NCBI GenBank assembly: GCA_017474515.1
Contig: JAFVHN010000084.1
Coordinates: 1-41,039, forward strand
Direction: 5' to 3'
From: Prevotella sp.
Lineage (GTDB): Bacteria > Bacteroidota > Bacteroidia > Bacteroidales > Bacteroidaceae
Length of the DNA stretch: 41,039 bases
Positions 12,690 through 34,063 of this stretch are shown here, one piece after another; positions within the stretch are counted from its first letter, which is position 1, and every line of letters begins with the position of its first letter. The notes below the pieces were generated by a model. That model saw only the letters and a list, made by a program, of their open reading frames with translations. It searched no databases and was not told where the DNA came from. Both the position numbers and the translations under genes were made by a program.

Positions 12690-12758
12690 AAAAATCTTTA
12701 CATTTTCATGGTTTTTTGAGCATTTTTGTAACGTGTTGATAGTCAGTATGTTTTAAAA
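12690..12758 (+). repeat. Composite element copy A, AT-rich modules
   Basis: Module 1 (AAAAATCTTTACA, 12690-12702) is followed 34 bases later by module 2 (TTTTGTAA at 12724, then TTGATAGTCAG and TATGTTTTAAAA). The same two modules at the same 34-base offset occur at 32857 and 32891, and in inverted form at 21546-21488. Here no TTTGACCGC hairpin follows; a tandem repeat takes its place. Confidence 0.7.
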
Positions 12759-12774
12759 TAGCCTGGAGTATGAC

Positions 12775-12827
12775 GCCAAATCTCTGGTGTTAATTTGCCA
12801 AATCTCTGGTGTTAATTTGCCAAATCA
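12775..12827 (+). repeat. 22-bp tandem repeat, 2.4 copies
   Basis: Units 12775-12796 and 12797-12818 are identical (beginning GCCAAATCTCTGG), followed by a partial third (12819-12827). The 14-base string TTTGCCAAATCTCT also occurs in the hairpin arm at 32982-32995, which ties this tandem to the composite element. Confidence 0.85.
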
Positions 12828-21274: not shown

Positions 21275-21345
21275 ATAAGTGAAAAGAGAGAACAATCACT
21301 TGCCTGCTTTATCACTTATCATTTAGCAAAGCGCAGCGCTCTCTT
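21275..21345. repeat. AT-rich dispersed repeat remnant
   Basis: AAGTGAAAAGAGAG, then ATCACTTATCATTTAGCAAAGCGC, of the same family as 15450-15485 and 40919-40955. Confidence 0.6.
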
Positions 21346-21384
21346 TTGTCAAGATTTTTCATTGTTTTTTGGATACCCCAAGAG

Positions 21385-21467
21385 GTTTGACCGCAAATTT
21401 CGGGGAGAGATCTTCAAGATTGAGAGAAGAAATCTTCAAGATTTCTCCCCGAAATTTGCGGTCAAAC
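21385..21467. repeat. Composite element copy B, long hairpin (36-bp arms)
   Basis: Arms 21385-21420 and 21432-21467 pair at 34 of 36 positions around an 11-base loop. The outer part (TTTGACCGCAAATTTCGGGG) equals that at 32935; the inner part differs (ATCTTCAAGAT here) yet still pairs. In this copy the AT-rich modules lie on the right, in inverted orientation. Confidence 0.9.
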
Positions 21468-21487
21468 TTGAAATGATTTTCAAGCCG

Positions 21488-21546
21488 TTGAAATTCAACG
21501 ACTTACAAAAATGACACGATAACGGCCTGTTTTGTCAAATATTTTT
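21488..21546 (-). repeat. Composite element copy B, AT-rich modules on the - strand
   Basis: Read on the - strand, AAAAATATTTGACAA (from 21546) is followed by TTTTGTAA (21510-21503), the small palindrome TTGAATTTCAA and GGCTTG. This matches modules 1 and 2 of the copies at 12690 and 32857 with an offset of 36 instead of 34. Confidence 0.6.
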
Positions 21547-21575
21547 ACCGATTTGACCCTTGCCGTTATCCGTCA
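21512..21575. other. Nested hairpin next to composite element copy B
   Basis: TGAC/GTCA, GATAACGGC/GCCGTTATC (21518-21526 with 21562-21570) and GTCAAAT/ATTTGAC (21534-21540 with 21551-21557) stack into one long stem with small internal loops. It overlaps module 1 of the composite element and lies between two convergent genes. Confidence 0.7.
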
Positions 21576-21634
21576 CAAAATTAAAAAAAGATGAAGGTTT
21601 AAAACATGCGAAAAAAGTTCTCTCTGATAACTTT

Positions 21635-22114
21635 CTAATGACCTATTTGTTCGATGAACGCGGAACCGATATTGATGAGCAACTTCACCATGAAGAAGAT
21701 GAGCGTGCAGAGCACTACCAGCACCGCCGCGCTCCACGCCGCCTTTTTGTTCACCGTGCGGATGGTGGCTTCGTCGCCATCGACGAAGCCTTTGATGAGG
21801 TTCATGTTTTGCCGGTTGCTCTTGTGTAACACGTCGATGACATCGCCGATATAAAAAGGTATCATTCCCAAAAGGATGTCGCGCAACGTGTTGTTGATGA
21901 TGGCCAGGGTGAGGGGCAACGACCGCACCTTCAGCATGCTGAACGCTATATAGGCCACCGACACCACTCCCGCCACGGCATCGCCGATGCCCCCGGGGAT
22001 GGCAAAGCCCAGGGCGGCGTCGATGTAGTACTTGTCCATCACGTCCGCAATCTCTTGCAGCCATTTGTAGGAACGGCTCTTCTCCAGCCGCTGGTTCATC
22101 AATTCACGATTCAT
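21635..22114 (-). CDS. DUF4112 membrane protein
   Basis: About 159 residues from ATG 22114. It contains the DUF4112 features AALGFAIPGGIGDAVAG and IINNTLRDILLGMIPFYIGD, with two to three membrane segments including AAVLVVLCTLIFFMVKLLI near the C-terminus. Function is unknown. The frame is open up to 22150, but that part encodes the promoter cassette. The -7 box at 22121-22128 puts the transcript start near 22116, so translation is either leaderless from 22114 or begins at the second Met, 22099. Confidence 0.8.
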   Translation of the reverse strand: MNRELMNQRLEKSRSYKWLQEIADVMDKYYIDAALGFAIPGGIGDAVAGVVSVAYIAFSMLKVRSLPLTLAIINNTLRDILLGMIPFYIGDVIDVLHKSNRQNMNLIKGFVDGDEATIRTVNKKAAWSAAVLVVLCTLIFFMVKLLINIGSAFIEQIGH

Positions 22115-22119
22115 CGGCG

Positions 22120-22185
22120 GCAAAGTTACGAAAAGTCGAGCGCAGAACAAAACAAATTCATTTGTTTTTTATGCCGAGACGTAGT
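22120..22185 (-). promoter_or_regulatory. Promoter cassette copy 1 (before the DUF4112 gene)
   Basis: On the - strand: TTTG (-33, 22148-22151), exactly 19 bases, TAACTTTG (-7, 22121-22128). The whole 66 bases, including 30 upstream of the -33 box, match 24964-25028 with four substitutions and one gap. A small inverted repeat (AAACAAA with TTTGTTT) lies upstream of the -33 box. Confidence 0.85.
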
Positions 22186-22223
22186 AATTAGTGAAAATCG
22201 CGTCAAGGAGACCCCCTGCCGTT

Positions 22224-22904
22224 CTATCGAATTTTCAATAGATTATCGTGGAAATCCATCATCGTCGTGAAAGCGGTGAACAGGTCATAGCCGATGGCAC
22301 CGTCGAGATTCATCATCTTGAGCGACAACGACAACAATGGCGGCAGGTTACCGAAGTTGACGGGAAAGGTCTTCCCGCCGATTTCTGCCTCCATGGCGAA
22401 AATGGGCGTGGCGAAATGGCCCGTCATTGGGTTGAAGTCATCTCGTATTTCAAAAGCGGTTTCCCCCGCGGTCAGTGAGTCGTCGATATAGGAAATTTTC
22501 GCCCCTGTGTCGAGGGCCATCTTCACCGTTTTTCCCTTTACGTTTAAAAGGATACACACGGCTCCCCTTTGGCCGCGGAGGATAGGTGTGGAGGAATCAT
22601 GCTCAAATGGAATGGGTTTCGAGCTGAACGTCACCAGCCCTTGCCGGTAATCGGTGAGGATGCAGAAATCGGCCAGAACATCCATTCCCATAAGCACGTC
22701 GATGTCGTAGCCCATCATCGAGGAAATGTCGTTGATGTCGTTCCCTATGAAGGAAGTCAGACACCCGTACTCCTTTCCCATGAAGAGGAAAACGTCTTGC
22801 CTGCCTATTGTAACGGGGCTTCCGGTATCGACCAGCACCTTCGTGCCGTCAAAGGAGAAGATTAAATGGCCGTCGTATAAATCAGTTGTAAACGATGTGC
22901 ACAT
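22224..22904 (-). CDS. Single-chain double retropepsin-like aspartic protease
   Basis: 226 residues from ATG 22904; no signal peptide, so probably cytoplasmic. Two retropepsin-like halves are visible: VLVDTGSPVT (catalytic DTG 26-28) with LMGMDVL (71-77), and MALDTGAKIS (DTG 132-134) with AIGYDLF (203-209). Each half thus has the D-T/S-G loop and a later hydrophobic-hydrophobic-Gly motif, as in pepsin-like chains that carry both aspartates. I infer a monomeric pseudo-dimer; activity is unproven. The frame extends upstream to 22979, but a -7 box at 22939-22946 lies inside that extension and excludes the longer start. Confidence 0.75.
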   Translation of the reverse strand: MCTSFTTDLYDGHLIFSFDGTKVLVDTGSPVTIGRQDVFLFMGKEYGCLTSFIGNDINDISSMMGYDIDVLMGMDVLADFCILTDYRQGLVTFSSKPIPFEHDSSTPILRGQRGAVCILLNVKGKTVKMALDTGAKISYIDDSLTAGETAFEIRDDFNPMTGHFATPIFAMEAEIGGKTFPVNFGNLPPLLSLSLKMMNLDGAIGYDLFTAFTTMMDFHDNLLKIR

Positions 22905-22938
22905 AATACAATGTTCGGTCAATGGAGATAAGCGCCTG

Positions 22939-22946
22939 CAAATGTA
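22939..22946 (-). promoter_or_regulatory. Promoter of the retropepsin-like gene (-7 box TACATTTG)
   Basis: Exact TAnnTTTG match followed by C, 34 bases before ATG 22904. It decides the start codon. Confidence 0.65.
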
Positions 22947-22989
22947 CAAAAAATATTGACACGACCATGTAAATGTCATAAAAAAGTAT

Positions 22990-22997
22990 TACCTTTA
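22990..22997 (+). promoter_or_regulatory. Possible promoter of the NT5C gene (-7 box TACCTTTA)
   Basis: Seven of eight positions match the consensus; 49 bases before ATG 23047 and back to back with the - strand promoter. Confidence 0.45.
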
Positions 22998-23046
22998 CAT
23001 CAATCAAAAAGACAATATCGGATAAAAAAGCATTAAGAGCAATAGA

Positions 23047-23502
23047 ATGGAAGAAAACAAAAAGAAGCGCGTATTTGTTGATATGGACAATGTGCTGGTG
23101 GATTTTCCATCAGGGCTGGCGCAGATTAGCGAAGAGGACAAGAAAAAATATGAAGGCCGGTTGGACGAGGTGCCAGAGTTGTTCAGCCTGATGAAACCCA
23201 TGCCCGGGGCCATAGATGCCGTCCATCGCCTTCAGGAACATTATGACCTTTTCATTCTTTCCACGGCGCCGTGGAAGAATCCGTCGGCATGGTCCGACAA
23301 GCTGAAGTGGGTGAACCGCTACCTCGAGGACGTGTTCTATAAGCGCATGGTCATTACACACCGAAAAGACCTGTGCCTGGGCGATTATCTGATAGATGAC
23401 CGCGGCAAAAATGGCACCAGCGAGTTCGTGGGCGAGTGGATTGAGTTCGGCTCCGAGAAATTCCCCGATTGGGAGAGCGTGCTCGCTTATCTCGGGGTGT
23501 GA
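23047..23502 (+). CDS. 5'-nucleotidase, NT5C type (HAD superfamily)
   Basis: 151 residues, cytoplasmic. HAD motif I is FVDMDNVLVDF with nucleophile Asp12 and acid/base Asp14, motif II is ILSTAP (about 70-75), and motif IV is DYLIDDR (113-119). These are the marks of 5'(3')-deoxyribonucleotidases, which remove the phosphate from dNMPs. The cap is small, as in bacterial NT5C-type proteins. It appears monocistronic and is followed by a block of repeats. Confidence 0.88.
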   Translation: MEENKKKRVFVDMDNVLVDFPSGLAQISEEDKKKYEGRLDEVPELFSLMKPMPGAIDAVHRLQEHYDLFILSTAPWKNPSAWSDKLKWVNRYLEDVFYKRMVITHRKDLCLGDYLIDDRGKNGTSEFVGEWIEFGSEKFPDWESVLAYLGV

Positions 23503-23507
23503 AGAGT

Positions 23508-23590
23508 GAGCCCCCCTCTAATCCCCCCTTGGGGGGAAGACGTACGGCCAAAAGGCTCCCTCTCCTTACGGGAGGGGCCGAGGGTGGGCT
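23508..23590. repeat. C/G-rich double-hairpin repeat, full form
   Basis: GCCCCCCTCTAATCCCCCC-TT-GGGGGG, then a spacer (ACGTACGGCC), then CTCCTTACGGGAGGGG and a GGGTGGGCT end. The terminal AGCCC and GGGCT are complementary, making a large palindrome with two inner hairpins. It lies directly after the NT5C stop. Confidence 0.85.
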
Positions 23591-23667
23591 ATGAACGTAA
23601 ATTTTTCTGCCGCCATTCAAAAGGTGAATAATAGAAAAAGGCTGCGCTATCCCCCGCCTCATGTAGG

Positions 23668-23685
23668 GACGTGATGTATCACGTC
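23668..23685. repeat. Perfect palindrome GACGTGAT-GT-ATCACGTC
   Basis: 8-bp arms with a 2-base centre, preceded by GTAGG. Short hairpins of this shape are scattered in many Bacteroidetes genomes. Confidence 0.6.
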
Positions 23686-23746
23686 AGCAAGTGAAGAGTG
23701 AAAAATGCCGAAGGTGTCGCGAGCGAATGAACGAGGAAATAAAATT

Positions 23747-23848
23747 GAATTAAGGATAATTCGTTTCAAGACCAAGGGCGCTGTTTTTTGAAACGAATTG
23801 ATTTTAATTATGTCTTAATAGAATTAGAATTAAGGATAATTCGTTTCA
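23747..23848. repeat. 22-bp direct repeats with an inverted third copy
   Basis: Perfect 22-base copies beginning GAATTAAGGATAATTCG stand at 23747-23768 and 23827-23848. Between them TGAAACGAATT (23789-23799) is inverted relative to their 3' halves and is followed by a degenerate inverse of the rest. The inner pair can fold into an 11-bp stem with a 20-base loop. Confidence 0.8.
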
Positions 23849-23910
23849 GATATCAAGTCGGAATATGTTCCGTTTTAATGCCATTTGGCTTGAGGAAATC
23901 TAATTGTTTT

Positions 23911-24729
23911 TTATTCCCTGGGTTCCTCAACATTTCCTTCAAACACAAATGTAGCCGGCCCCGTTAAATAGACGTGGTTGTCGGCTTCGCGCCATTCGAC
24001 GTCGAGGGTGCCGCCGTCCATGACGATGCGGCTTTTACGGCCGGTGCGTCCCGTTTTAAATGCCGCCACCGCCGCGGCACATGCCCCTGTTCCGCAGGCC
24101 ATGGTGATGCCGCTTCCACGTTCCCAAACGCGTACGCGGATGCCGTCGGGCCGCAATTCGGCAAACTCAATGTTGGCGCGTTCGGGGAAAGCGGGGTGGC
24201 GTTCCAACTCGCGGCCCATTGTTTCCACTTCGTCAACGTTGTCGGTAAAGATGACGAAGTGGGGGTTGCCCATGCTTACGAAAAAGCCATTTGGCAAGGA
24301 CTCATTGCCGGGAATGAAAAACCGCCTGTCGGAGAACTCCGGCTCACCCATGTCAACCGTTACGGAGGCCACCTTGCCATTGTCATTCGGCAACAGGTGT
24401 AAGTCCAGAATTTTCATCCCCGACCTCGTGAGCAACCGTACGCGGGTTTGTCGCGTAAGTCCTTTCTCATAAACATATTTCCCAATGCATCGGCAGGCAT
24501 TACCGCACATCATGGCTTCCGAGCCGTCGGCGTTGAAAATGCGCATGGTGAAATCCGCCTCGGGACTCCGCCCTATGAGCACAAGGCCGTCGGATCCGAT
24601 GCCCTTGCGCCGGTCGCTCCAGGCGCGGGACGCCGAAGCAGGGTCGGTTATATTATTATATAAGGTGTCAACATAGATGTAGTCGTTGCCGGCACCGTGC
24701 ATCTTTGTGAAATGTATTGTCCTTGACAT
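23911..24729 (-). CDS. dapF: Diaminopimelate epimerase
   Basis: 272 residues. DapF converts LL- to meso-diaminopimelate for lysine and peptidoglycan. Both catalytic cysteines are present: Cys75 in MCGNACRC and Cys212 in MACGTGAC, along with [15 protein letters not shown] at the N-terminus and GNPHFVIF (about 154-161). The length is typical. In this window it stands alone on its strand, with a consensus promoter 26 bases upstream. Confidence 0.96.
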
Positions 24730-24755
24730 ATTGCACCGTTATTCTTTTTTTCGTG

Positions 24756-24763
24756 CAAAGTTA
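24756..24763 (-). promoter_or_regulatory. dapF promoter (-7 box TAACTTTG)
   Basis: Exact consensus followed by C on the - strand, 26 bases before ATG 24729. Confidence 0.7.
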
Positions 24764-24947
24764 ACTATTTTATTGTAATATGCAAGAATAGCAAGGTCGG
24801 CTTTTTACTCTTCTTGTCGGTTCATTTGTCGAAAATAATCATGCGGTTTTCGTAATAATTCGCATGGATTATGGTTTGTTGACTGATAAATCATCACATA
24901 ATTTAAAAAATACCCACCTACAGGCATTATATTTCGACTTTTTTATG

Positions 24948-24955
24948 TAAATTTG
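24948..24955 (+). promoter_or_regulatory. Upstream menG promoter candidate (-7 box TAAATTTG)
   Basis: Exact consensus followed by C. It is preceded by TTCGACTTTT, the same string found between the -33 and -7 boxes of the cassette just downstream, so two related promoters are arranged in tandem. The stretch 24780-24940 before it shows no gene or repeat. Confidence 0.5.
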
Positions 24956-24963
24956 CATAAGTT

Positions 24964-25028
24964 ACTGCGTCTCGGCATAAAAAACAAAGGATTTGTTTTG
25001 TTCTGCGCTCGACTTTTTGTATCTTTGC
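24964..25028 (+). promoter_or_regulatory. Promoter cassette copy 2 (before menG)
   Basis: TTTG (-33, 24997-25000), 19 bases, TATCTTTG (-7, 25020-25027). The 65 bases match the cassette at 22120-22185 on the other strand. The predicted leader to ATG 25090 is about 57 nt. Confidence 0.9.
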
Positions 25029-25089
25029 AAGCAGAAAAAGCGTATTGGCCAATGTGCCATGTTCTTGGCTGACGTGGCTATAGATTATA

Positions 25090-25824
25090 ATGTACAAGCA
25101 GGAAACGATTACGCCCTACGCCGACGGGCAAGAGAAAGCCCGGCAGGTGGAGGAGATGTTTGACAACATTGCAGGCACCTACGACAAGCTGAACCACCGG
25201 CTGTCGTGGGACATCGACAAGCGCTGGCGTCGCAAGGCCATAGCGCAACTGTCGCCTTTTCATCCCCGCCGGTTGCTTGACGTGGCCACCGGAACAGGCG
25301 ATTTTGCCATCCTCTCGGCCATGATGCTGGAGCCGCAAAGTGTGCTGGGCATTGACCTCTCGGAGGGCATGATGGAAGTGGGACGCAGGAAGGTGGAGGA
25401 GCGCGGCCTGTCGAAGGTCATCTCGTTTGTGCGTGAGGACTGCACTAAGATGTCGCTCCCCGACAACGCCTTCGACGCGGTGACGGCGGCTTTCGGCATT
25501 CGCAATTTCCAGGACCTGGACAGCGGCTTGCGCGAAATGTGCCGCGTGCTGAAGCCCGGCGGGCATCTCAGCATTGTGGAGCTTACGCGGCCCGTGGCAT
25601 TCCCCATGAAGCAGCTGTTCTGGCTCTACAGCCACACGTTGCTGCCCATCTATGGCAAGCTGGTGTCGAAAGACAAGAGCGCCTATCGCTACCTTATCGC
25701 CACTATCGAGGCTTTCCCGCAGGGCGAGGAAATGGTGGCCATTATGAAACGGGCGGGGTTTGCCGAGGCTTCTTTCAAGAGGCTGACCTTCGGCATCTGC
25801 ACCATGTATATGGCTGAAAAGTGA
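25090..25824 (+). CDS. menG: Demethylmenaquinone methyltransferase (MenG/UbiE)
   Basis: 244 residues. It methylates demethylmenaquinone, the last step of menaquinone synthesis in anaerobes of this group. UbiE signatures: [21 protein letters not shown] (23-43), SAM loop [10 protein letters not shown] (63-72), [13 protein letters not shown], and [20 protein letters not shown]. The length is typical. It is driven by the promoter cassette at 24964-25028. aroE follows after a 122-base repeat-rich gap. Confidence 0.95.
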
Positions 25825-25839
25825 AAAAGAAGTACTCTT

Positions 25840-25935
25840 TTCAACGATGATTTATGATTTATGAATTATGCGCGACGCCATAACTCTTAACTAAGAACTC
25901 ATAATTTAAAAAGCCTTTTAACTCCTGAACACCAA
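25840..25935. repeat. AT-rich dispersed repeat between menG and aroE
   Basis: ATGATTTATGATTTATGAATT and AACTCTTAACTAAGAACTCA are low-complexity, partly self-complementary copies of the intergenic repeat seen at 420-490 and 40880-40920. Confidence 0.6.
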
Positions 25936-25946
25936 AAATATACAAT

Positions 25947-26693
25947 ATGGACAAATATGGACTTATAGGTCACCCGCTGGGGCACAGTTTCTCAATCAGC
26001 TACTTCAACGAGAAGTTCCAGAATGAGAACATTGATGCCGAGTACCTGAATTTTGACATCCCGAGCATTGACGGCTTGTTTGAGGTGCTGGCGCTGAACC
26101 CTGAGCTGAAGGGTCTCAACGTCACTATTCCCTATAAGGAAAAGGTGCTCAGCTTCCTCGACAGCATCAGTCCCGAGGCCAGGGCCATTGGGGCGGTGAA
26201 CGTCATACGCGTGGACCATAAGGGCAGCGACGTGAGGCTGAAAGGCTTCAACAGCGATGTCATTGGCTTCACCAAGAGCATTGAGCCCATGTTGGAGAAA
26301 TGCCACAAGAAGGCGCTGATACTGGGCACGGGGGGCGCGTCGAAGGCCGTGGATTTCGGACTGAGGTCGATAGGCTTGGAAACGGTGTTCGTGAGCAGGT
26401 ATGAGCGGCCGGGGACCATTCAGTATGGCAGTGTGACGGCCGAGGTGGTGAAGGAGTATAACGTCATTGTGAACTGCACGCCCGTTGGCATGTTTCCCCG
26501 TACCGACCAGTGTCCGCAACTGCCATACGAGGCGCTCGACGAGCATAACATCCTCTACGACCTCCTTTATAATCCCGACGAAACGTTGTTTATGTACAAA
26601 GGGCGAAAGCAGGGGGCTACGGTGAAAAACGGGCTTGAAATGTTGCTGCTACAGGCATTTGCAAGCTGGGAATTCTGGAACGGGAAAGAATGA
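25947..26693 (+). CDS. aroE: Shikimate dehydrogenase
   Basis: 248 residues. AroE reduces 3-dehydroshikimate to shikimate with NADPH. The substrate motif YGLIGHPLGHSFSISYFNEKF (4-24), NVTIPYKEKV with the catalytic lysine, the nucleotide loop GTGGASKAV, and NCTPVGMFP are all present. It is slightly shorter than the E. coli enzyme (272). It follows menG on the same strand; linkage through the repeat-filled gap is uncertain. Confidence 0.95.
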   Translation: MDKYGLIGHPLGHSFSISYFNEKFQNENIDAEYLNFDIPSIDGLFEVLALNPELKGLNVTIPYKEKVLSFLDSISPEARAIGAVNVIRVDHKGSDVRLKGFNSDVIGFTKSIEPMLEKCHKKALILGTGGASKAVDFGLRSIGLETVFVSRYERPGTIQYGSVTAEVVKEYNVIVNCTPVGMFPRTDQCPQLPYEALDEHNILYDLLYNPDETLFMYKGRKQGATVKNGLEMLLLQAFASWEFWNGKE

Positions 26694-26793
26694 ATTGGTA
26701 ATTATGATTTATGAGTTTAGTTTCCTTCACAAGCGCTCATACATCTAATTCCCAAACAACCAATCTTTTAAATGTCCAAACATCTAAAATTTT

Positions 26794-27975
26794 ATGACCA
26801 ATAAAGGCTGTTCTCCCACCGTCATCATGCTGGCAGTATTGTTGTTGTCGTTGTTTCTTTCAGCCGGCTTTTCCAGCATCGACAAGTGGAATATGGGTTA
26901 CTGGCAGGTGCTTGGCTTGTTGCTGGGCATCACGGTGGTAATTTTCGGCCTTTGGTATTTTTGGAAGAAAAAGATTGGCAATCCCACTCTTGCCCAGCAA
27001 GATGCGACTTTTTTGGAAAAGCAGGAACAGGTTACCGGCAACGGAACGAAAAAGACGTCCGACTTTAACAAGAAATTGCCGTCGTTCCTGTTCGAGAAAT
27101 TATTGCTGGGGCTTTTGTTCTGGGTTGTCATCCTTTGTGCCATCGTGTCGTGCGAATACACATGGATGGGAGAAGATGCCGATACGGAAATTCATCAGAC
27201 AACTTGGAATGCCAGTAATATTCCATTGCCACACCTGAAAGACGGACGGCAGTATGTGTCGAACCCCGACAGCGTCATCAGCCAGCAAACGGTTGACTCC
27301 ATGAATGTTGTGTTGTGGAAGCTCGACAAGGAGGTGGGGGTGGAGTCGGCCGTCATCATTGTCAACCATATTGAAAACCAGGATGCTTTCCGAATGGCGC
27401 AAGATGTTGGCAATATGTATGGCGTGGGAAATAAGGAGTCGAACCGCGGACTGGTTATCGTGGTGGCATACGAGGACCATAAATATTTTATCGCTCCTGG
27501 CCGAGGACTGGAAAAACATCTTACAGATGCCGATTGCAGCCAGTTGGCCAGGCATTATCTGACCCCATTCCTTAAGCAGTATAATCCTGATGGAGGAATG
27601 CTGAAACTTGTGGAGGCCACTTATCTGCTGGCCAAGGAACGGCGGTTGCTTGACGAGCCTACGGAAGAAGAACTCCTGGCCGGAGCAAGGCAAGAAGAGG
27701 AGAGTGGGCCAGAGTCCATCACCCTGGGATTGCTAACCATCTGGATTATTCTCTATGCCATCCTGAACGGCAAGTATGAATGGTTGCAGTTTAATTCGTC
27801 GTCAGGTACCGGGTATACGGGATTTGGCCGTTCGCGAATGGGCGGCGGTTCCTCGTCGTGGGGCTCTACAGGCTTCGGCAGGGGCGGTTTTGGCGGCGGC
27901 TTTGGTGGCGGAGGTTTCAGCGGCGGCTACGGCGGCGGAAGCTTCGGTGGCGGAGGTGCCGGCGGCGGTTGGTAA
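26794..27975 (+). CDS. TPM-domain membrane protein with Gly-rich tail
   Basis: 393 residues: three hydrophobic helices (about 9-27, 37-56, 97-121), a TPM (YgcG-like) domain (about 146-290, with VIIVNHIENQ and IVVAYEDHKYFIAPGRGLE), another helix (about 309-328) and a glycine/serine-rich tail (345-393) ending GGGW. TPM proteins of this type commonly sit beside lemA, as here. Some TPM domains have phosphatase activity or take part in photosystem or respiratory repair; here the role is unknown. Probably co-transcribed with lemA 55 bases on. Confidence 0.85.
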   Translation: MTNKGCSPTVIMLAVLLLSLFLSAGFSSIDKWNMGYWQVLGLLLGITVVIFGLWYFWKKKIGNPTLAQQDATFLEKQEQVTGNGTKKTSDFNKKLPSFLFEKLLLGLLFWVVILCAIVSCEYTWMGEDADTEIHQTTWNASNIPLPHLKDGRQYVSNPDSVISQQTVDSMNVVLWKLDKEVGVESAVIIVNHIENQDAFRMAQDVGNMYGVGNKESNRGLVIVVAYEDHKYFIAPGRGLEKHLTDADCSQLARHYLTPFLKQYNPDGGMLKLVEATYLLAKERRLLDEPTEEELLAGARQEEESGPESITLGLLTIWIILYAILNGKYEWLQFNSSSGTGYTGFGRSRMGGGSSSWGSTGFGRGGFGGGFGGGGFSGGYGGGSFGGGGAGGGW

Positions 27976-28030
27976 GCTGTTTTTAAATTGTTTGGAATAA
28001 TCATTATTAATCACTAAAAATAAGAAAGTT

Positions 28031-28609
28031 ATGAAAAAAGGTACATGGTTAATTGCTATCGTGGCCGTTGTTGCTCTTTATGCCATTAGCGCATACAACG
28101 GAATGGTGGGAGTGCAGGAAGAAGCCACCAAGTCGTGGGCAAATGTGCAGAGCGCCTACCAGCGGCGTGCAGACCTTATTCCCAATCTTGTGGAAACAGT
28201 GAAAGGGTATGCCAAACATGAGGAAGAAACATTCAAGGGCGTGGTTGAGGCCAGGGCAAAAGCCACTCAGATTACTGTTGACCCGGAGAACCTGACTCCT
28301 GAGAAATTGCAGGAGTATCAGAAGGCTCAAGGCGAACTGGGTGCAGCACTTGGAAAACTAATTGCCGTCCAGGAGAACTATCCCGAACTGAAAGCCAACG
28401 AGAATTTCAAGGACCTACAGGTGCAGCTGGAAGGAACTGAAAACCGCATTAACGAGGCCAGGAACAAATTCAACGACAAGGTTCAGGAATATAACATCAC
28501 CATTCGCCAGTTCCCCAAGAACATTGTTGCCAATATCTTCGGTTTCAAGAAGATGGAGAAGTTTGAGGCCGATGCCGATGCACAGAATGCACCCAAGGTG
28601 AAATTCTGA
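28031..28609 (+). CDS. lemA: LemA family protein
   Basis: 192 residues with one N-terminal membrane helix (about 6-24) and a long antiparallel helical bundle. The family core YNGMVGVQEEATKSWANVQ, YQRRADLIPNLVETVKGYA and the FNDKVQEYNITIRQFP tail are clear. LemA proteins lack a known enzymatic activity and usually neighbour TPM-domain proteins. Its stop is 6 bases before the purM start, so the conserved membrane pair is tied to a purine gene. Confidence 0.93.
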   Translation: MKKGTWLIAIVAVVALYAISAYNGMVGVQEEATKSWANVQSAYQRRADLIPNLVETVKGYAKHEEETFKGVVEARAKATQITVDPENLTPEKLQEYQKAQGELGAALGKLIAVQENYPELKANENFKDLQVQLEGTENRINEARNKFNDKVQEYNITIRQFPKNIVANIFGFKKMEKFEADADAQNAPKVKF

Positions 28610-28615
28610 TTCCTG

Positions 28616-29785
28616 ATGATGGACAACAGGTATATGATGCGTGGCGTGAGTGCTGCCAAGGAAGATGTGCACAACGCCATCAAAAACATCGACAAGGGGT
28701 TGTTTCCCAAGGCTTTCTGCAAAATCATTCCCGACATTCTTGGTGGCGACCCCGACTATTGCAACATCATGCATGCCGACGGAGCTGGAACAAAATCCAG
28801 CCTCGCTTACATGTATTGGAAGGAAACGGGCGACCTGAGCGTATGGAAAGGAATTGCCCAGGATGCCATCGTAATGAACACCGACGACCTGCTTTGCGTG
28901 GGAGCCGTTGACAACATTTTGGTAAGCAGCACCATCGGGCGCAACAAGAACCTTGTGCCGGGTGAGGTGATTGCCGCCATCATCAACGGCACCGATGAAC
29001 TGCTTTCGCAAATGAGGGAGATGGGCATCGGCATTTATCCCACGGGTGGGGAAACGGCCGACGTGGGCGACTTGGTGAGAACCATCATTGTAGATAGCAC
29101 CGTGACGTGCAGGATGAAACGCGAGGATGTCATCAATAATGCCAACATCCGGCCCGGTGATGTCATCGTGGGTTTGAGTTCGTCGGGGCAGGCAACCTAT
29201 GAAAGCTGCTATAACGGCGGAATGGGAAGCAATGGACTGACCTCTGCAAGGCACGATGTGTTTGCAAAATATCTTGCCGAAAAGTTTCCCGAAAGTTATG
29301 ACCATGCCGTTCCGCAGGAACTTGTCTATAGTGGCTTGTTTCGGTTGCAAGATGAAGTGGAAGGCACCGGCCGCAATACCGGGCAACTTGTGTTGTCGCC
29401 AACGCGCACCTATGCTCCGGTCATTAAAAAGATGCTCGACCTCTACCGCCGCGACATTCACGGCATGGTGCATTGCACGGGCGGCGCTCAGACAAAAGTG
29501 CTGCATTTCGTGAATGAAAACTGCAAGGTGGTGAAAGACAACATGTTCGCTGTTCCGCCTCTCTTCATGATGATACAGCAATGCTCCAAAACCGATTGGA
29601 AGGAAATGTACCAAGTGTTTAACATGGGGCACCGGATGGAACTGTATGTCGCTCCCGAAACAGCCCCTCTTCTCATTGCCATCAGCAAAGAATTCAACAT
29701 CGATGCGCAGGTGGTGGGACATGTGGAGGAAGGTCCCCGCTCGCTGACCATCGTGAGCGAGTATGGACAATTCTATTATGAATAA
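28616..29785 (+). CDS. purM: Phosphoribosylformylglycinamidine cyclo-ligase (PurM, AIR synthase)
   Basis: 389 residues. PurM makes aminoimidazole ribonucleotide from FGAM with ATP. PurM-superfamily hallmarks: MHADGAGTKSSLAY, AQDAIVMNTDDLLCVGA, YPTGGETADVGD, and the C-terminal MVHCTGGAQTKV and VFNMGHRMELYV. Two adjacent ATGs (28616, 28619) could serve as start. It begins 6 bases after lemA and leads into prfA and pyrF. Confidence 0.92.
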   Translation: MMDNRYMMRGVSAAKEDVHNAIKNIDKGLFPKAFCKIIPDILGGDPDYCNIMHADGAGTKSSLAYMYWKETGDLSVWKGIAQDAIVMNTDDLLCVGAVDNILVSSTIGRNKNLVPGEVIAAIINGTDELLSQMREMGIGIYPTGGETADVGDLVRTIIVDSTVTCRMKREDVINNANIRPGDVIVGLSSSGQATYESCYNGGMGSNGLTSARHDVFAKYLAEKFPESYDHAVPQELVYSGLFRLQDEVEGTGRNTGQLVLSPTRTYAPVIKKMLDLYRRDIHGMVHCTGGAQTKVLHFVNENCKVVKDNMFAVPPLFMMIQQCSKTDWKEMYQVFNMGHRMELYVAPETAPLLIAISKEFNIDAQVVGHVEEGPRSLTIVSEYGQFYYE

Positions 29786-29809
29786 TCACTATCGACAAAC
29801 CATTTCAGC

Positions 29810-30922
29810 ATGGCAGAAAACAACAGCATATTGGAGAAACTCGACGGCTTGGAGGCTCGTTTTGAAGAAGTTTCGACACTGATAACCGACCCCGAAGTCA
29901 TTACCGACCAACAGCGGTTCGTGAAGTTGACGAAAGAATACAAAGACCTTGGCGACATCATGGACGCACGCAAGCGTTACATTGCATGCCTTAACGGCAT
30001 CAAGGAGGCCAAGGACATCCTTGCCAACGAGGACGACCCGGAAATGAAGGAAATGGCCCGCGAGGAATTGGCGGTTAACGAGGCTTTGCAACCGCAGTTG
30101 GAAGAAGAAATAAAACTGGCCCTCGTGCCGAAAGACCCCGAAGATGCCAAGAACGTGCAAATGGAGATACGTGCCGGAACGGGAGGCGACGAGGCGTGCC
30201 TCTTTGCCGGTGACTTGTTCCAGATGTACAAGAAATTCTGCGACTCGAAAGGCTGGAACCTCAGTATTACGAGCGTGAGCGAAGGTGCAGTAGGCGGTTT
30301 CAAGGAAATCGACTTCGCCGTCAGCGGTGCCGATGTCTATGGCACATTGAAATATGAGTCGGGTGTTCACCGTGTGCAGCGTGTGCCGGCCACTGAGACA
30401 CAGGGCCGCATGCACACCTCTGCCGCCACCGTGGCCGTGCTTCCCGAGGCCGACAAGTTTGAGGTGCATATCAACGAAGGCGACATCAAGTGGGACACTT
30501 TCCGCAGTTCGGGAGCCGGAGGTCAGAACGTCAACAAAGTGGAGTCGGGTGTAAGGCTGCGGTATCCTTGGAAAAATCCCAACACCGGCGTGGTGGAGGA
30601 AATTCTCATTGAGTGTACCGAAACGCGCGACCAGCCCAAGAACAAAGAGCGGGCGTTGTCGAGGCTTCGCACGTTCATCTACGACCGTGAGCATCAGAAA
30701 TATATGGACGACATCGCTTCAAGGCGAAAGACACTGGTGAGCACCGGCGACAGGTCGGCAAAGATTCGCACCTATAACTTTCCGCAAGGACGTGTCACCG
30801 ATCATCGCATCGGTTTCACCACCCACGACCTTTCGGGCTTTCTTTCAGGAAACATTCAGGAAATGATAGATGCCCTCACGGTTGCCGAGAATGCCGAGCG
30901 GTTGAAGGAAAGCGAATTATAG
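29810..30922 (+). CDS. prfA: Peptide chain release factor 1
   Basis: 370 residues. RF1 ends translation at UAA and UAG. The stop-codon reading PxT motif (PAT, 193-195, in RVPATETQGR) identifies RF1 rather than RF2, and GGQ (247-249, SSGAGGQNVNK) is the peptidyl-hydrolysis loop. The N-terminal helical domain is complete. Located 24 bases after purM. Confidence 0.97.
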   Translation: MAENNSILEKLDGLEARFEEVSTLITDPEVITDQQRFVKLTKEYKDLGDIMDARKRYIACLNGIKEAKDILANEDDPEMKEMAREELAVNEALQPQLEEEIKLALVPKDPEDAKNVQMEIRAGTGGDEACLFAGDLFQMYKKFCDSKGWNLSITSVSEGAVGGFKEIDFAVSGADVYGTLKYESGVHRVQRVPATETQGRMHTSAATVAVLPEADKFEVHINEGDIKWDTFRSSGAGGQNVNKVESGVRLRYPWKNPNTGVVEEILIECTETRDQPKNKERALSRLRTFIYDREHQKYMDDIASRRKTLVSTGDRSAKIRTYNFPQGRVTDHRIGFTTHDLSGFLSGNIQEMIDALTVAENAERLKESEL

Positions 30923-31002
30923 GGAACCATCTTCCAGGTTTTCTTTGTCAGTCTTCAAATGTTTAAATAACAAATAGTTACTATTTATCTTTCAACTCTT
31001 CG

Positions 31003-31833
31003 ATGAACAGGAAAGAACTCTTCAACCAGATACGTTTAAAACGCTCGTTTTTGTGCGTCGGTCTCGATACCGACCCCAAGAAAATGCCGCAATGCGTTTT
31101 CGACCTTTACGATCCCATTTTTGAATTTAACAAAGCCATCATCGATGCCACGGCACCTTATTGCGTGGCCTACAAGCCCAATCTTGCTTTCTACGAGGCT
31201 TACGGCATCAAGGGCATGACGGCTTTCGTCAAAACCGTCAACTACCTCAAAGAGGCCCACCCGCATCATTTCATCATCGCCGACGCCAAGCGCGGTGACA
31301 TCGGCAATACCTCCTCCATGTATGCCCGGACTTTTTTCGAAGAATACGACATCGACTCGCTCACCGTGGCACCCTATATGGGCGAGGACAGTGTGAGGCC
31401 GTTCCTCGAGTACGAAGGGAAATGGGTCATTCTGCTGGCGCTTACCAGCAACAAGGGCAGCCACGATTTCCAATTGACGGAAGATGCTCGGGGTGAGCGT
31501 CTCTTTGAGAAAGTGCTCCGCAAAAGCATGGAGTGGGGGACAGCCGACAATATGATGTACGTGGTTGGTGCCACGCAGGCCGACATGTTCAAGCGCATTC
31601 GCGAAATCGTGCCCCACCATTTCCTGCTTGTTCCCGGAGTGGGCGCACAGGGCGGCTCTTTGCAGGAGGTTTGCAAGTATGGCATGAACGAGGAATGTGG
31701 CCTGCTCGTCAATTCCTCGCGGGCCATCATCTATGCCTCGGCAGACGACCATTTCGCAGAAATCGCAGGAAACAAAGCCCGCGAGCTGCAACAGGAAATG
31801 GCCGCTCTGTTGGCCGGAGCCGGCATCGTTTGA
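31003..31833 (+). CDS. pyrF: Orotidine 5'-phosphate decarboxylase, type 2
   Basis: 276 residues. PyrF decarboxylates OMP to UMP. The active-site motif [11 protein letters not shown] (94-104) carries the Asp-Lys-Asp charge network (Lys96), and [14 protein letters not shown] and [11 protein letters not shown] are typical of the longer type-2 group. It ends the TPM-lemA-purM-prfA-pyrF series; a terminator follows. Confidence 0.96.
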
Positions 31834-31878
31834 TGAATCGGGGCCGCGTTGACAACGCGGCAAACAGAAAAAACATAG

Positions 31879-31919
31879 AAAAACCGGGCTTCCCGTCGGT
31901 GGGAAGTCCGGTTTTTTTA
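31879..31919. terminator. Bidirectional terminator after pyrF
   Basis: Arms 31883-31894 and 31901-31912 (ACCGGGCTTCCC with GGGAAGTCCGGT, one G-T pair), flanked by A-run and T-run. It separates convergent pyrF and the lipoprotein gene. Confidence 0.85.
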
Positions 31920-31943
31920 GTGTCTTTTATAATATGATAAGCG

Positions 31944-32633
31944 TTAGAGTCCGAGCTTTTTCTTTGCTGCAGCGGCAGCGTCAGAAGCAGCCTTGTCCAC
32001 GGCGCCAGCGGCAGCGTCCTTAGCCTTTTCCACAGCCTCTCCGGCAGCTTCCTTGGCATTGTCGGCAGCGTCCTTAGCCTTGTCCACAGCGTCGGCGGCA
32101 GCGTCCTTCACGTCTTCCACCTTGCCTTCAACAGCGTCCTTGGCATCTTCAACGGCATCCTTGGCACCTTCTGCCAGGCCAACAGCCGAGGCGGCAGCGT
32201 CGAGGCCCACGTTCTTCAGCAGTTCCTTGGCATCCAGCATCTTCTCAACACTCTCGGTGGGAAGGTTGGCAAGGCCGTCAACCAAAGAGGCAACAGCAGC
32301 ATTGCTTCCAACAACAGCAGCGATGGCATCCTTCTTGTCCTTCAGGAACTCCTGAACCTTTGCCAGATACTCCTTGGCCACTTCGGGGTTCTTGCTCAGG
32401 AACTCAGCAACTTTCTCCTTCACGGCGGTGATGGCAGCCTCGAAAGCGGTGGCATCCTTCTTCTCAATGTTGTCGCTAAGGGCGGCGATGGATTCATCGA
32501 CAGCAGCCTGCACGTCAATTTCTTCAGCGGCAGCTTCCACTTCGGGGGTTTCGGGCTCGGTGGTCTTCTTGTCGGTGCAACTAACAAATGTCAAACCTGC
32601 TGCTACTACAGCAAACAAAAATAATTTCTTCAT
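31944..32633 (-). CDS. LEA-like helical lipoprotein with 11-residue repeats
   Basis: 229 residues from ATG 32633. A lipoprotein signal with Cys19 (FVSC) is followed by an acidic linker (DKKTTEPETPEVEAAAEE), a helical domain (40-150) and an Ala/Lys/Asp/Glu tail. From residue 157 the tail runs in six exact 11-residue steps (AKDAVEDAKDA, VEGKVEDVKDA, AADAVDKAKDA and so on to 222), the periodicity of group 3 LEA proteins and of surface-binding amphipathic helices. A role in stress protection or membrane/peptidoglycan contact is an inference. The frame is open upstream to 32735, but that part overlaps the promoter. Confidence 0.8.
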   Translation of the reverse strand: MKKLFLFAVVAAGLTFVSCTDKKTTEPETPEVEAAAEEIDVQAAVDESIAALSDNIEKKDATAFEAAITAVKEKVAEFLSKNPEVAKEYLAKVQEFLKDKKDAIAAVVGSNAAVASLVDGLANLPTESVEKMLDAKELLKNVGLDAAASAVGLAEGAKDAVEDAKDAVEGKVEDVKDAAADAVDKAKDAADNAKEAAGEAVEKAKDAAAGAVDKAASDAAAAAKKKLGL

Positions 32634-32681
32634 TTTGATTAAAAATTTAGTTAATAGTAAGTGAATTAAAAAATTTGGGTG

Positions 32682-32689
32682 TAAAGATA
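32682..32689 (-). promoter_or_regulatory. Promoter of the LEA-like lipoprotein gene (-7 box TATCTTTA)
   Basis: Seven of eight positions fit TAnnTTTG on the - strand; leader about 45 nt to ATG 32633. It supports that start over the longer frame. Confidence 0.55.
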
Positions 32690-32788
32690 CAACATTTTTA
32701 ATTTCGTTGTTATTTTTTTTGACATGGTTTAACATAAAAATTTCATTTGCCCTTTTTCAAGCCCTTTTTAAGGCCCATTTCCGGGTCT

Positions 32789-32848
32789 TTTTTTCACCCT
32801 CTTTTCATCTCTTTTTTCACCCTCTTTTCATCTCTTTTTTCACCCTCT
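32789..32848 (+). repeat. 23-bp pyrimidine-rich tandem repeat, 2.6 copies
   Basis: The unit TTTTTTCACCCTCTTTTCAT plus CTC is repeated at 32789-32811 and 32812-32834, with a partial third to 32848. The strand is almost purely C/T. Confidence 0.85.
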
Positions 32849-32850
32849 AT

Positions 32851-33055
32851 TTTATGAAAAATCTTTACAAATTTATATATTTATGTCTCGTTTTGTAATG
32901 TATTGATTATCAGCTTGTTTAAAAATGCTCCCGTTTTGACCGCAAATTTCGGGGAGAGATTTGGCAGTTTGAGGGGAGAAATTTGCCAAATCTCTCCCCG
33001 AAATTTGCGGTCAAACTATTTTTGCAATACTTTTGTTTATGAAAAATCTTTACAA
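32851..33055 (+). repeat. Composite element copy C (AT-rich modules, hairpin, flanking direct repeat)
   Basis: A perfect 20-base direct repeat, TTTATGAAAAATCTTTACAA, stands at 32851-32870 and 33036-33055. Between lie module 2 (TTTTGTAATG at 32891, TTGATTATCAGCTTG) and a hairpin with perfect 32-bp arms (32935-32966 with 32984-33015) and a 17-base loop. The outer arm TTTGACCGCAAATTTCGGGG is shared with 21386; the inner arm (ATTTGGCA) is different but still complementary. Confidence 0.9.
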
Positions 33056-33228
33056 TTTTGGTTCGGTTCTCGTCATTCTTTACCAACATCATTTCAAGAA
33101 CGAGAAACATATTGACAAATCGTTATGTGTTGTTGTTACACATAATCTTGCTTGTTCTCAAGTGTTAAAAAATTGTAAACAATAGATTTTCCTGCCCCTG
33201 TTGTTGGATTTAATTCCCAATTTATGAG

Positions 33229-33236
33229 TACCTTTG
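33229..33236 (+). promoter_or_regulatory. infC promoter (-7 box TACCTTTG)
   Basis: Exact consensus followed by C; 35 bases before ATG 33272. TTGG at 33204-33207 is a possible weak -33 box (21-base spacer). Confidence 0.7.
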
Positions 33237-33271
33237 CAGCCGATTTACGAAAGTTGAACTAAAATCAGTTA

Positions 33272-33979
33272 ATGAAGAACGACAAAAAAGGACCGCAATA
33301 CCGCGTGAACGAGCAAATTCGCGTTCGCGAAGTGCGCATTGTAGGTGAGGGTGACTCTCAGGTCATGCCCACCCGCCAGGCTTTGGATATGGCACGACAG
33401 CAAGGCGTTGACCTTGTTGAAATATCGCCCAATGCCAACCCGCCTGTATGCCGTATCATTGACTACAGCAAGTTCCTCTATCAGCAGAAGAAACGGGCCA
33501 AGGAAATGAAGGCCAAGCAGGTGAAGCAAGAGGTGAAGGAAATACGTTTCGGCCCTCAGACCGACGACCACGACTACAACTTCAAGCTGAAGCATGCCAT
33601 GGAATTCCTTCAGGAAGGCAACAAGGTGCGAGCCTATGTGTTCTTCCGCGGAAGGAGCATTTTGTTCAAGGAACAGGGAGAAGTTCTCCTGTTGCGCTTC
33701 GCCAACGACCTTGAGGAGTATGGCAAGGTAGAGCAGATGCCCAGCCTCGAAGGAAAGAAAATGTTCCTTTACATTTCGCCCAAAAAAGCCGGCGTGGCCA
33801 AGAAGAGCCAGCAGAAGATGGACCGCGAGCGCCGGGAGGCCGAAGCCAAGGAAGCCGCCGAGCAGAAAGCAGAGGTGGAAGCCAAGGAGAGCATTGCCAC
33901 CAACGGACTGTTTGCCAACATGAAGGGTGGCGACGAAATCCTCAGCAAACTGAGGGGAGACACCGAGAAGGAAGATTGA
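33272..33979 (+). CDS. infC: Translation initiation factor IF-3
   Basis: 235 residues. IF3 binds the 30S subunit and checks the start codon and initiator tRNA. The N-domain ([41 protein letters not shown]) and C-domain ([27 protein letters not shown]) are complete. A tail of about 60 residues rich in Lys, Glu and Ala follows (from about 175), absent from the 180-residue E. coli protein. Start is a plain ATG, not the rare AUU of E. coli. It heads infC-rpmI-rplT; thrS, often upstream, is not in the window. Confidence 0.96.
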
Positions 33980-33996
33980 AATCAGGAAAAATACTT

Positions 33997-34026
33997 GTGC
34001 GCAACGCCGGGTATATGCGTTGCCAC
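33997..34026 (+). promoter_or_regulatory. Hairpin in the infC-rpmI spacer
   Basis: GCAACGC (34001-34007) pairs with GCGTTGC (34017-34023), extended by GTG/CAC across a bulge. It lies 38 bases before the L35 start, where L20 feedback sites occur in other phyla; that function is inferred. Confidence 0.4.
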
Positions 34027-34063
34027 GGTACATATACATTATTAATTAATTAAACTCAAAAAA

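Follow-up and report, generated by a model that had tools for sequence, protein, structure and literature searches.

The window analysed here, a stretch of 41,039 nucleotides from Prevotella sp. (contig JAFVHN010000084.1, assembly GCA_017474515.1), carries a composite repeat in three places. Copy B, on the forward strand, starts with a left direct repeat, DR1 (TATGAAAAATCTTTACAAA, positions 32852 to 32870, read directly and from the consensus of copies), followed by a dyad core (TTGTAA-n4-TTGATTATCAG-n4-TT.., 32893 to 32923, centred at 32908), an 81-bp hairpin that is an array of four palindromic units (32935 to 33015, read directly and from arm matches) and a right direct repeat, DR2 (TGAAAAATCTTTACAATT, 33040 to 33057, read directly and from its spacing). 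Copy A has the same parts on the reverse strand, with DR1 (GTAAAAATATTTGACAAAA in minus-strand letters) at 21530 to 21548, the core at 21478 to 21508 (centre 21493), the 81-bp array of four palindromic units at 21386 to 21466 and an exactly matching DR2 (TGAAAAATCTTGACAAAA) at 21344 to 21361. Copy C, on the forward strand, is incomplete: DR1 (12690 to 12702) and the core (12726 to 12756, centre 12741) are followed by a 22-bp tandem of ATTTGCCAAAT-type units (ca. 12772 to 12826), and neither outer units nor a right repeat were seen in its sequence. The three-place composite repeat described by an earlier note on this DNA is confirmed. Its parts were read directly, with module 1 (AAAAATCTTTACA) at 12690 and 32857, module 2 (TTTTGTAA) at 12724 and 32891, an inverted module copy around 21503 to 21548, the two hairpins and the 22-bp tandem. 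Module 1 is present where noted, but a second copy beyond each hairpin (33040 to 33057, and 21344 to 21361 on the minus strand) had been overlooked, so the element is bounded by a direct repeat at each end. Similarly, the tandem of the third copy exists but is not something separate from the hairpin, which itself consists of four palindromic units spaced by ca. 22 bp.

The element is dispersed in ca. 200 copies throughout the 3.5-Mb genome to which the window belongs. With up to three mismatches allowed, the hairpin arm TTTGACCGCAAATTTCGGGGAGA gave 195 forward and 205 reverse matches in this genome and the reversed pattern none on either strand; the repeat is far above chance expectation. Its anatomy, drawn from 109 fetched copies, is fixed in the order DR1 (TGAAAAATCTTGACAAAA), dyad core (consensus TTGTAAn4YTGAwwwTCARn4TT), the four palindromic units ca. 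22 bp apart (TTTGACCGCAAA, CTTSAAG and TTGSCAA) that make up the 81-bp hairpin, and DR2. Spacing is constant to ca. 1 bp, and many of the spacer letters are near random. The hairpin is present in all 109 copies; it starts 27 bp from the core centre in 107 of them and ends 24 bp before DR2 in 101 of 108. The modular, dispersed structural element suggested earlier is supported, with ca. 200 copies of fixed anatomy, the two most similar of the 109 being 91.5% identical. As is usual for repeats of the BIME/RIB type, the many copies are mostly intergenic. Open reading frames of at least 200 amino acids covered the hairpin in 11 of the 109 copies and 71 of 109 random places; the corresponding figures were 17 and 82 for at least 150 amino acids, and 52 and 91 for at least 100. 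All four arrangements of neighboring genes were found (35, 26, 22 and 18 among 101 copies, with crude gene calls), and no orientation with respect to the genes was clearly preferred in this set.

The core can be written as two half-consensuses of integration host factor (IHF), TAAnnnnTTGATW and WATCAAnnnnTTR, with the central W in common (the consensus letters are those given in PMC10380432). On these letters we liken it to an IHF site, i.e., a putative bend site. It should be noted that the commonest core centre in the window genome, TGAATTTCA, departs from WATCA (30 of 104 site entries, compared with 33 for TGATWATCA). Complementarity between the N4 spacers shows a weak excess at most (z of 1.6, 1.2 and 2.1 in three sets, reached by 59, 139 and 18 of 1,000 shuffles, respectively), and the central pair shows some complementarity in the window genome (z of 3.1) but not in the other two sets. 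The strict form of the core is nearly confined to Bacteroidota, with 60 of 61 stretches in the GTDB collection titled as groups of this phylum. In several Prevotella genomes, a small lipoprotein-like gene, the same in each, has the core alone upstream of it. In a viral contig (L304), cores occur in pairs, 48 bp from each other, in the gaps between small genes, and a recombinase-core or integron-like reading was considered for them.

The earlier proposal would fall if related genomes held no further copies, and here letters and architecture gave different answers. The arm was absent from all 59 relatives screened at up to two mismatches, and its exact form had no match in the GTDB collection, which may omit the window genome and those near to it. 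The core, in contrast, was found in 171 of 398 genomes of the genus, including that of the window (the reversed control in 3), and phased arrays recur with it. Core matches number 228 in the window genome (both strands, so palindromic sites may count twice) and 0 to 3 in eleven relatives fetched as loci through their best matches to window positions 31003 to 34039. Arrays with a 22-bp period adjoin the core in 15 of 31 genomes examined, with letters that differ between species. Among 68 flanks of 34 loci, 25 had a clear period, which was 22 or 44 in 20 of them; shuffles gave 0 of 68. Of 46 array entries, 44 keep an 11-bp register with the core dyad (modulo 11, with a tolerance of 1 bp), as do 14 of the 15 genomes (binomial p of ca. 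1e-8, Rayleigh p of ca. 4e-5). Three places are entered twice in this count, the loci had been selected for clear arrays, and close relatives are among the genomes (G342/G335 and G372/G170). Four of five further sources agree with this register, and a Saprospiraceae array (L301), from outside Prevotellaceae, is out of register. Elements at orthologous places occur mainly among close species, and distant species share too few neighbors to reveal fixed positions at which the letters were swapped. In five orthologous pairs from G170 and G372, core and array differ less (8/155 and 77/575, respectively) than the two flanks (193/794 and 251/883, in which unaligned inserts are counted).

A layout that recurs in other Prevotella with different letters argues for a scaffold of protein on DNA and against an RNA. 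The explanation we favor, which may equally well prove right or wrong, is that this dispersed, intergenic, BIME-like DNA element would be the scaffold for a nucleoprotein complex, with a DNABII bend site and phased protein sites. A homodimeric DNABII protein of the IHF/HU type would bind and kink the core, a second, lineage-specific dimeric protein would occupy the palindromic units on the same face of the helix, and together they would wrap the intergenic DNA and organize or insulate it. The type of the inner units would be free to change because neighboring sites serve one protein, or because tandem 22-bp units are copied, and not through pairing of an RNA stem. More tentatively, and with some doubt on our part, this could be one case of a chromosomal element class defined by geometry, genus-wide and perhaps Bacteroidota-wide. 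In such a class, a symmetric bend site for DNABII would seed a lattice of dimer sites in helical phase, with one dyad per 11 bp and one unit per 22 bp, and the letters would be exchanged completely from one species to the next, presumably in coevolution with a cognate DNA-binding or mobilizing protein. In G372, the element lies upstream of HU-HIG genes (PF18291, DNABII-like), although these nine cassettes may represent one event copied along with the gene. In the window genome, neither core nor arm lies close to any of the five DNABII-family hits, HU-HIG included.

The earlier note had also suggested, as one possibility, an RNA with structure under selection, and had seen that the inner arm changes and still pairs. 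An RNA of this kind, or an attenuator or terminator hairpin selected for pairing, would fit the 81-bp hairpin, which none of the 109 fetched copies lacks, the fall in Watson-Crick pairing from 86% to 17 to 40% when the partner is shifted by 1 to 3 bases and the agreement in type between the inner units of one hairpin (100 of 108 distinct hairpins, with 7 mixed and 1 other). What was noted about the inner arm holds for the type of the unit but not for its centre base, which is Watson-Crick paired in 25 of the 108 and not pairable in 82. Two other pairs are Watson-Crick in just 42 and 47 hairpins, no covariation was found at pairs 24:58 and 36:46, and no compensating changes appeared in the 108 beyond the pairing of the palindromic units. 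The pairing follows instead from self-palindromic units standing in tandem, as the unpaired centres indicate. Gene orientation shows no preference, Rfam gave no matches within the window, and other species have the same layout with units in the same direction that do not pair. With pair counts and gene context against it, selection for an RNA or hairpin was set aside as very improbable. Some features of the pairing lean against the scaffold as well, among them the complementarity of the central core pair in the window genome. Outer units 1 and 4 stand inverted to each other in every case and pair well, something that a plain array does not demand. In the N4 spacers of the core, G-U cells outnumber A-C cells (98/42, 50/31 and 39/32), as they do to a slight extent in the hairpin (172/135); this excess could be a matter of composition.

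A non-autonomous mobile element appears rather unlikely to us. Its end repeats, core and palindromes would be recognized by a transposase or recombinase, and an IHF-type bend would be the accessory site. This reading overlaps with the scaffold because a mobile element can also act as one. The lineage-specific number (228 core matches here and 0 to 3 in eleven relatives), the identical direct repeats 184 to 186 bp apart and the orthologous placement mainly among close species speak for it. However, terminal inverted repeats are lacking, both ends carrying one repeat without inversion, and so are near-identical copies. Gene order at one window locus examined for an empty site differs in relatives, and a G372 query returned no empty site at orthologous places in either G170 or G156. 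The only PF01797 (Y1/RAYT-type) hit of the window genome, at locus L129, is flanked by a different repeat (GTAGGGACATACTTTATGTATGTCC), and this locus has no match to the arm, end repeat, inner unit or leader. RAYT was rejected as the mobilizer because the repeats beside its gene are others. Ordinary operators of one regulon that share a layout by chance would also be intergenic and would account for lone cores upstream of one lipoprotein-like gene; ca. 200 copies, in all four gene orientations and with paired end repeats, are atypical of a regulon and make this improbable.

If the scaffold is real, an abundant genus of the gut, rumen and mouth carries a chromosomal system overlooked by sequence searches because its conservation is mainly in spacing. 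It would also offer a testable site for the little-studied DNABII proteins of Bacteroidota, and it would illustrate arrays of sites whose geometry is retained although letters are exchanged between related species. We found no description of the element in the open-license literature, where several of our searches were aimed at IHF, BIME or HU instead.

Among known systems, the Correia elements of Neisseria are small dispersed repeats with an IHF-type site, inverted termini and a TA target duplication, but they are not known to have a 22-bp lattice. The GTAG/CGTC REPs and the REPINs with their RAYT resemble our element in being palindromic, dispersed, conserved in parts and free in their spacers; however, the GTAG/CGTC tag was not seen here, and the RAYT-type gene lies beside another repeat. 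A term search of PMC3733652 and PMC12306157 did not find “Prevotella.” The BIME-1/RIB and BIME-2 of Escherichia coli are likewise high-copy intergenic composites of palindromic units and an IHF-type site. In PMC2817692, the inter-REP sequence of BIME-1 is described as interacting with IHF and BIME-2 as binding gyrase. In contrast, the Prevotella element has no REP (PU) letters, judged by eye, and it has direct end repeats, a lattice of 22 bp that keeps register with its symmetric double half-site, and unit letters that change between species of one genus. The BrickBuilt MITE of Porphyromonas gingivalis, as portrayed in PMC4596501, is also from Bacteroidales and intergenic, with a leader and a tail enclosing short tandem repeats and with long predicted stem-loops. 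Its direct repeats are 23 nt long and number 1 to 22.8, and it has IS5-like terminal inverted repeats of the GAGACCTTTGCA type, which is not in our element consensus, and 19 copies, whereas the Prevotella element has a 22-bp repeat, four to five units, direct end repeats, ca. 200 copies and a dyad core.

The composite repeat is present in three copies in the window, contig C6 of a 3.5-Mb genome in 118 contigs, at the places where the earlier note had put them, as borne out by direct reading of the sequence. Copy A (21344-21548, minus strand) and copy B (32852-33057, plus strand) are complete, with a left direct repeat, a core dyad, a hairpin of four palindromic units ca. 22 bp apart and a right direct repeat; copy C (12690-12826) is without the outer units and any visible right repeat. 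The 23-base outer hairpin arm, TTTGACCGCAAATTTCGGGGAGA, had 195 forward and 205 reverse matches in the window genome (up to 3 mismatches), and the reversed pattern, used as a control, had none at the same tolerance. As each hairpin gives one match in each direction, the genome should carry ca. 200 copies. Among the matches listed, perfect arms first, 109 copies were oriented, a sample that therefore favors well-kept ones. The hairpin measured 81 bp in all 109, though ca. 20 to 180 bp was permitted in the search, and started 27 bp from the core center in 107; the left repeat lay 81 or 82 bp before it in 106 of 109, and the right repeat 24 bp beyond its end in 101 of 108. The end repeat TGAAAAATCTTGACAAAA had 168 + 173 matches in the window genome (up to 2 mismatches; control, 0), with pairs 184 to 186 bp apart among those listed. 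Many spacer positions between the conserved blocks hold almost no information, and pairwise identity (n = 109) had a median of 63%, with 75% for nearest neighbors and a maximum of 91.5%. Such identities do not point to a recent burst among the sampled copies; spacers appear to drift while motif and spacing are held. A GCTTTGCTAAATGAnAAATGATAAATG-type sequence is found ca. 17 bp past the right end repeat in a subset of copies (window 21290-21330 and many right flanks), and also adjoins a copy in another genome, G375 (locus L132).

The arm (up to 2 mismatches) was absent from all 59 other genomes searched (35 genus members and 24 from the order). With a whole copy as DNA query, short, weak matches were obtained in only 4 of 397 genus genomes beyond its own. 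The match in G202 falls on the end repeat, and those in G063, G375 and G142 on the core, adjoined by 22- or 44-bp arrays with other letters. With up to 1 mismatch allowed, 171 of the 398 genomes of the genus, among them that of the window, contained the core pattern, and 3 its reverse. Further copies in related genomes, which the earlier note had expected, thus exist as core plus 22-bp arrays with other letters, but, in the 59 searched, not as the arm itself. Among 34 loci, 25 flanks had a clear period, which was 22 or 44 in 20; no shuffled flank (0/68) had any. Unit letters vary between species: AAAAGTACGTACTTTT in G342 and G335, AAAACATCTAGATGTTTT in G232, AAATTGTCTTATAAGACAATTT in G017, AAAAGGGCATCTTTT in G403, AAACGGgCCGTTT in G219, AAACATATATGTTT in G187 (spacing partly 23) and AAAAGTGGCACTTTT in G375. 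By eye, same-orientation repeats flank the element on both sides in several species. Several Prevotella genomes have a core without visible array upstream of apparently the same small lipoprotein-like gene (L150, L154, L155, L162, L163, L244, L271, L276 and L287).

The arrays keep register with the core. From 88 core loci in 31 genomes, 46 array entries from 15 genomes passed the threshold (three places entered twice; close relatives G342/G335 and G372/G170 included), and palindrome centers lay a multiple of 11 bp, give or take 1, off the core dyad in 44 of them, from 14 of the 15 genomes (binomial p ~1e-8 against 5/22; Rayleigh p ~4e-5). By hand count, the units of copy B lie ca. 32.5, 56, 78 and 101.5 bp off the core center. 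Four of five further sources (G063, G375, L251, L255 and L301) were in register, the exception being the Saprospiraceae array. In that MAG (L301), outside Prevotellaceae, the core is adjoined by a 22-bp array of TGTACGTAAACAGGG units, out of register with the dyad.

IHF and HU bend DNA through two kinks spaced by 9 bp, and the TT and AA steps of the core have this spacing too. Homodimeric DNABII host factors are present in Bacteroides, and a symmetric core would fit a homodimer. In PMC10380432, the IHF consensus is given as TAAnnnnTTGATW and WATCAAnnnnTTR. The core, TTGTAAnnnnYTGATWATCARnnnnTTRCAA, amounts to two such half-sites back to back with the W in common. Among 104 site entries in the window genome, the center was TGATWATCA in 33 and the off-consensus TGAATTTCA in 30. 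Searched against the GTDB collection, the strict form turned up in 61 stretches: 60 carry titles of Bacteroidota groups (27 come from a single Microscillaceae genome), and the remaining one belongs to a Thalassovita MAG. It was also present in 7 viral contigs. Core dyads are numerous in the Microscillaceae MAG, Prado074 (27/61 stretches, L241-L301), and in some cases adjoin a second dyad, GCTAAGTA-TTGAAAATCAA-TACTTAGC; no 22-bp array exceeded the threshold in these stretches. Five times in a viral contig (L304 2073-4450, IMG/VR 3300009506_000146), small genes are separated by two core-like dyads spaced 48 bp from each other and sharing a similar middle, ca. GTGTGCTGTGCGAAAGTG.

The earlier note had proposed, as one possibility, a structured RNA under selection, with a hairpin that changes but keeps pairing. 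Some features lean that way. Outer units 1 and 4 are mutually inverted in all hairpins and pair well, 86% of the cells in the 36 hairpin pairs are Watson-Crick (172 G-U versus 135 A-C cells), and inner units are of the same type in 100 of 108 distinct hairpins (63 CTTSAAG and 37 TTGSCAA; 7 mixed, 1 other). In the core, the N4 spacers have a slight complementarity excess (z of 1.6, 1.2 and 2.1 in three sets); for the central pair, an excess (z 3.1) was limited to the window genome. The G-U over A-C excess in N4 (98/42, 50/31 and 39/32) may reflect composition, yet leans towards pairing. However, each inner unit is an odd palindrome and neighboring units mostly share one reading direction, leaving the unit-center base unable to pair. 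At pair 30:52, 25 of 108 hairpins were Watson-Crick and 82 neither standard, G-U nor A-C, and pairs 24:58 and 36:46 were Watson-Crick in only 42 and 47. Kept pairing therefore holds for inner unit type and fails for the unit center. The central spacer was C-rich in 46 and G-rich in 38 hairpins (n = 108). An Rfam search of the window gave no matches, and flanking genes had no clear orientation preference (n = 101, crude gene calls; 35 divergent, 26 convergent, 22 + 18 codirectional). These results speak against the structured RNA, and on the whole the hairpin pattern matches palindromic protein sites in an array better than it does a conserved RNA stem.

Gene neighbors offer a hint of a link between the element and DNABII. 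In G372 (L187, L309, L311, L313-L319), a lipoprotein-like gene and one matching Pfam HU-HIG (7.3e-17; 62 bits, cut-off 26.2) have the array family TAAGTATGATACTTA between them. This cassette has nine paralogues there, each with a DNA match spanning the element's place, and the array was read directly in four. In G329, an HU-like frame ends ca. 110 bp from a core. The five HU-HIG family matches of the window genome have no core or arm nearby. The same genome (L129, contig C24) has a single Y1/RAYT-type gene (1354-1899) with inverted GTAGGGACATACTTTATGTATGTCC repeats on both sides (1220-1310 and 1945-2135), a GTAG-tagged family also seen beside some element copies (L009 and L010).

For five of six fetched G170 loci, the element is at the orthologous place in G372. 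Over these five pairs, differences amounted to 8/155 aligned bases in the core, 77/575 in the array, and 193/794 and 251/883 in the flanks, the latter taking in unaligned inserts. Beyond close species, common neighbor genes are rare, and the window genome has 228 core matches (counted over both strands, with palindromic sites possibly entering twice) versus 0 to 3 in eleven fetched relatives, the best matches to window 31003-34039 at 78 to 84% identity. Thus, at short distances positions are inherited, and at longer ones both copy number and letters turn over. Gene order differs at window 32640-33272, where the gene at 33272, presumably infC, has a divergent lipoprotein-like neighbor and those of relatives L230 and L232 a tRNA-synthetase-like gene upstream.

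No prior description of the element was found in the open-licence literature searched. The features tested ruled out membership in the BIME, REP/RAYT, MITE or BrickBuilt families. We take the element to be a DNA scaffold, perhaps a mobile one, BIME-like in kind, made of a putative DNABII bend site and phased palindromes that are candidate sites for a second protein.
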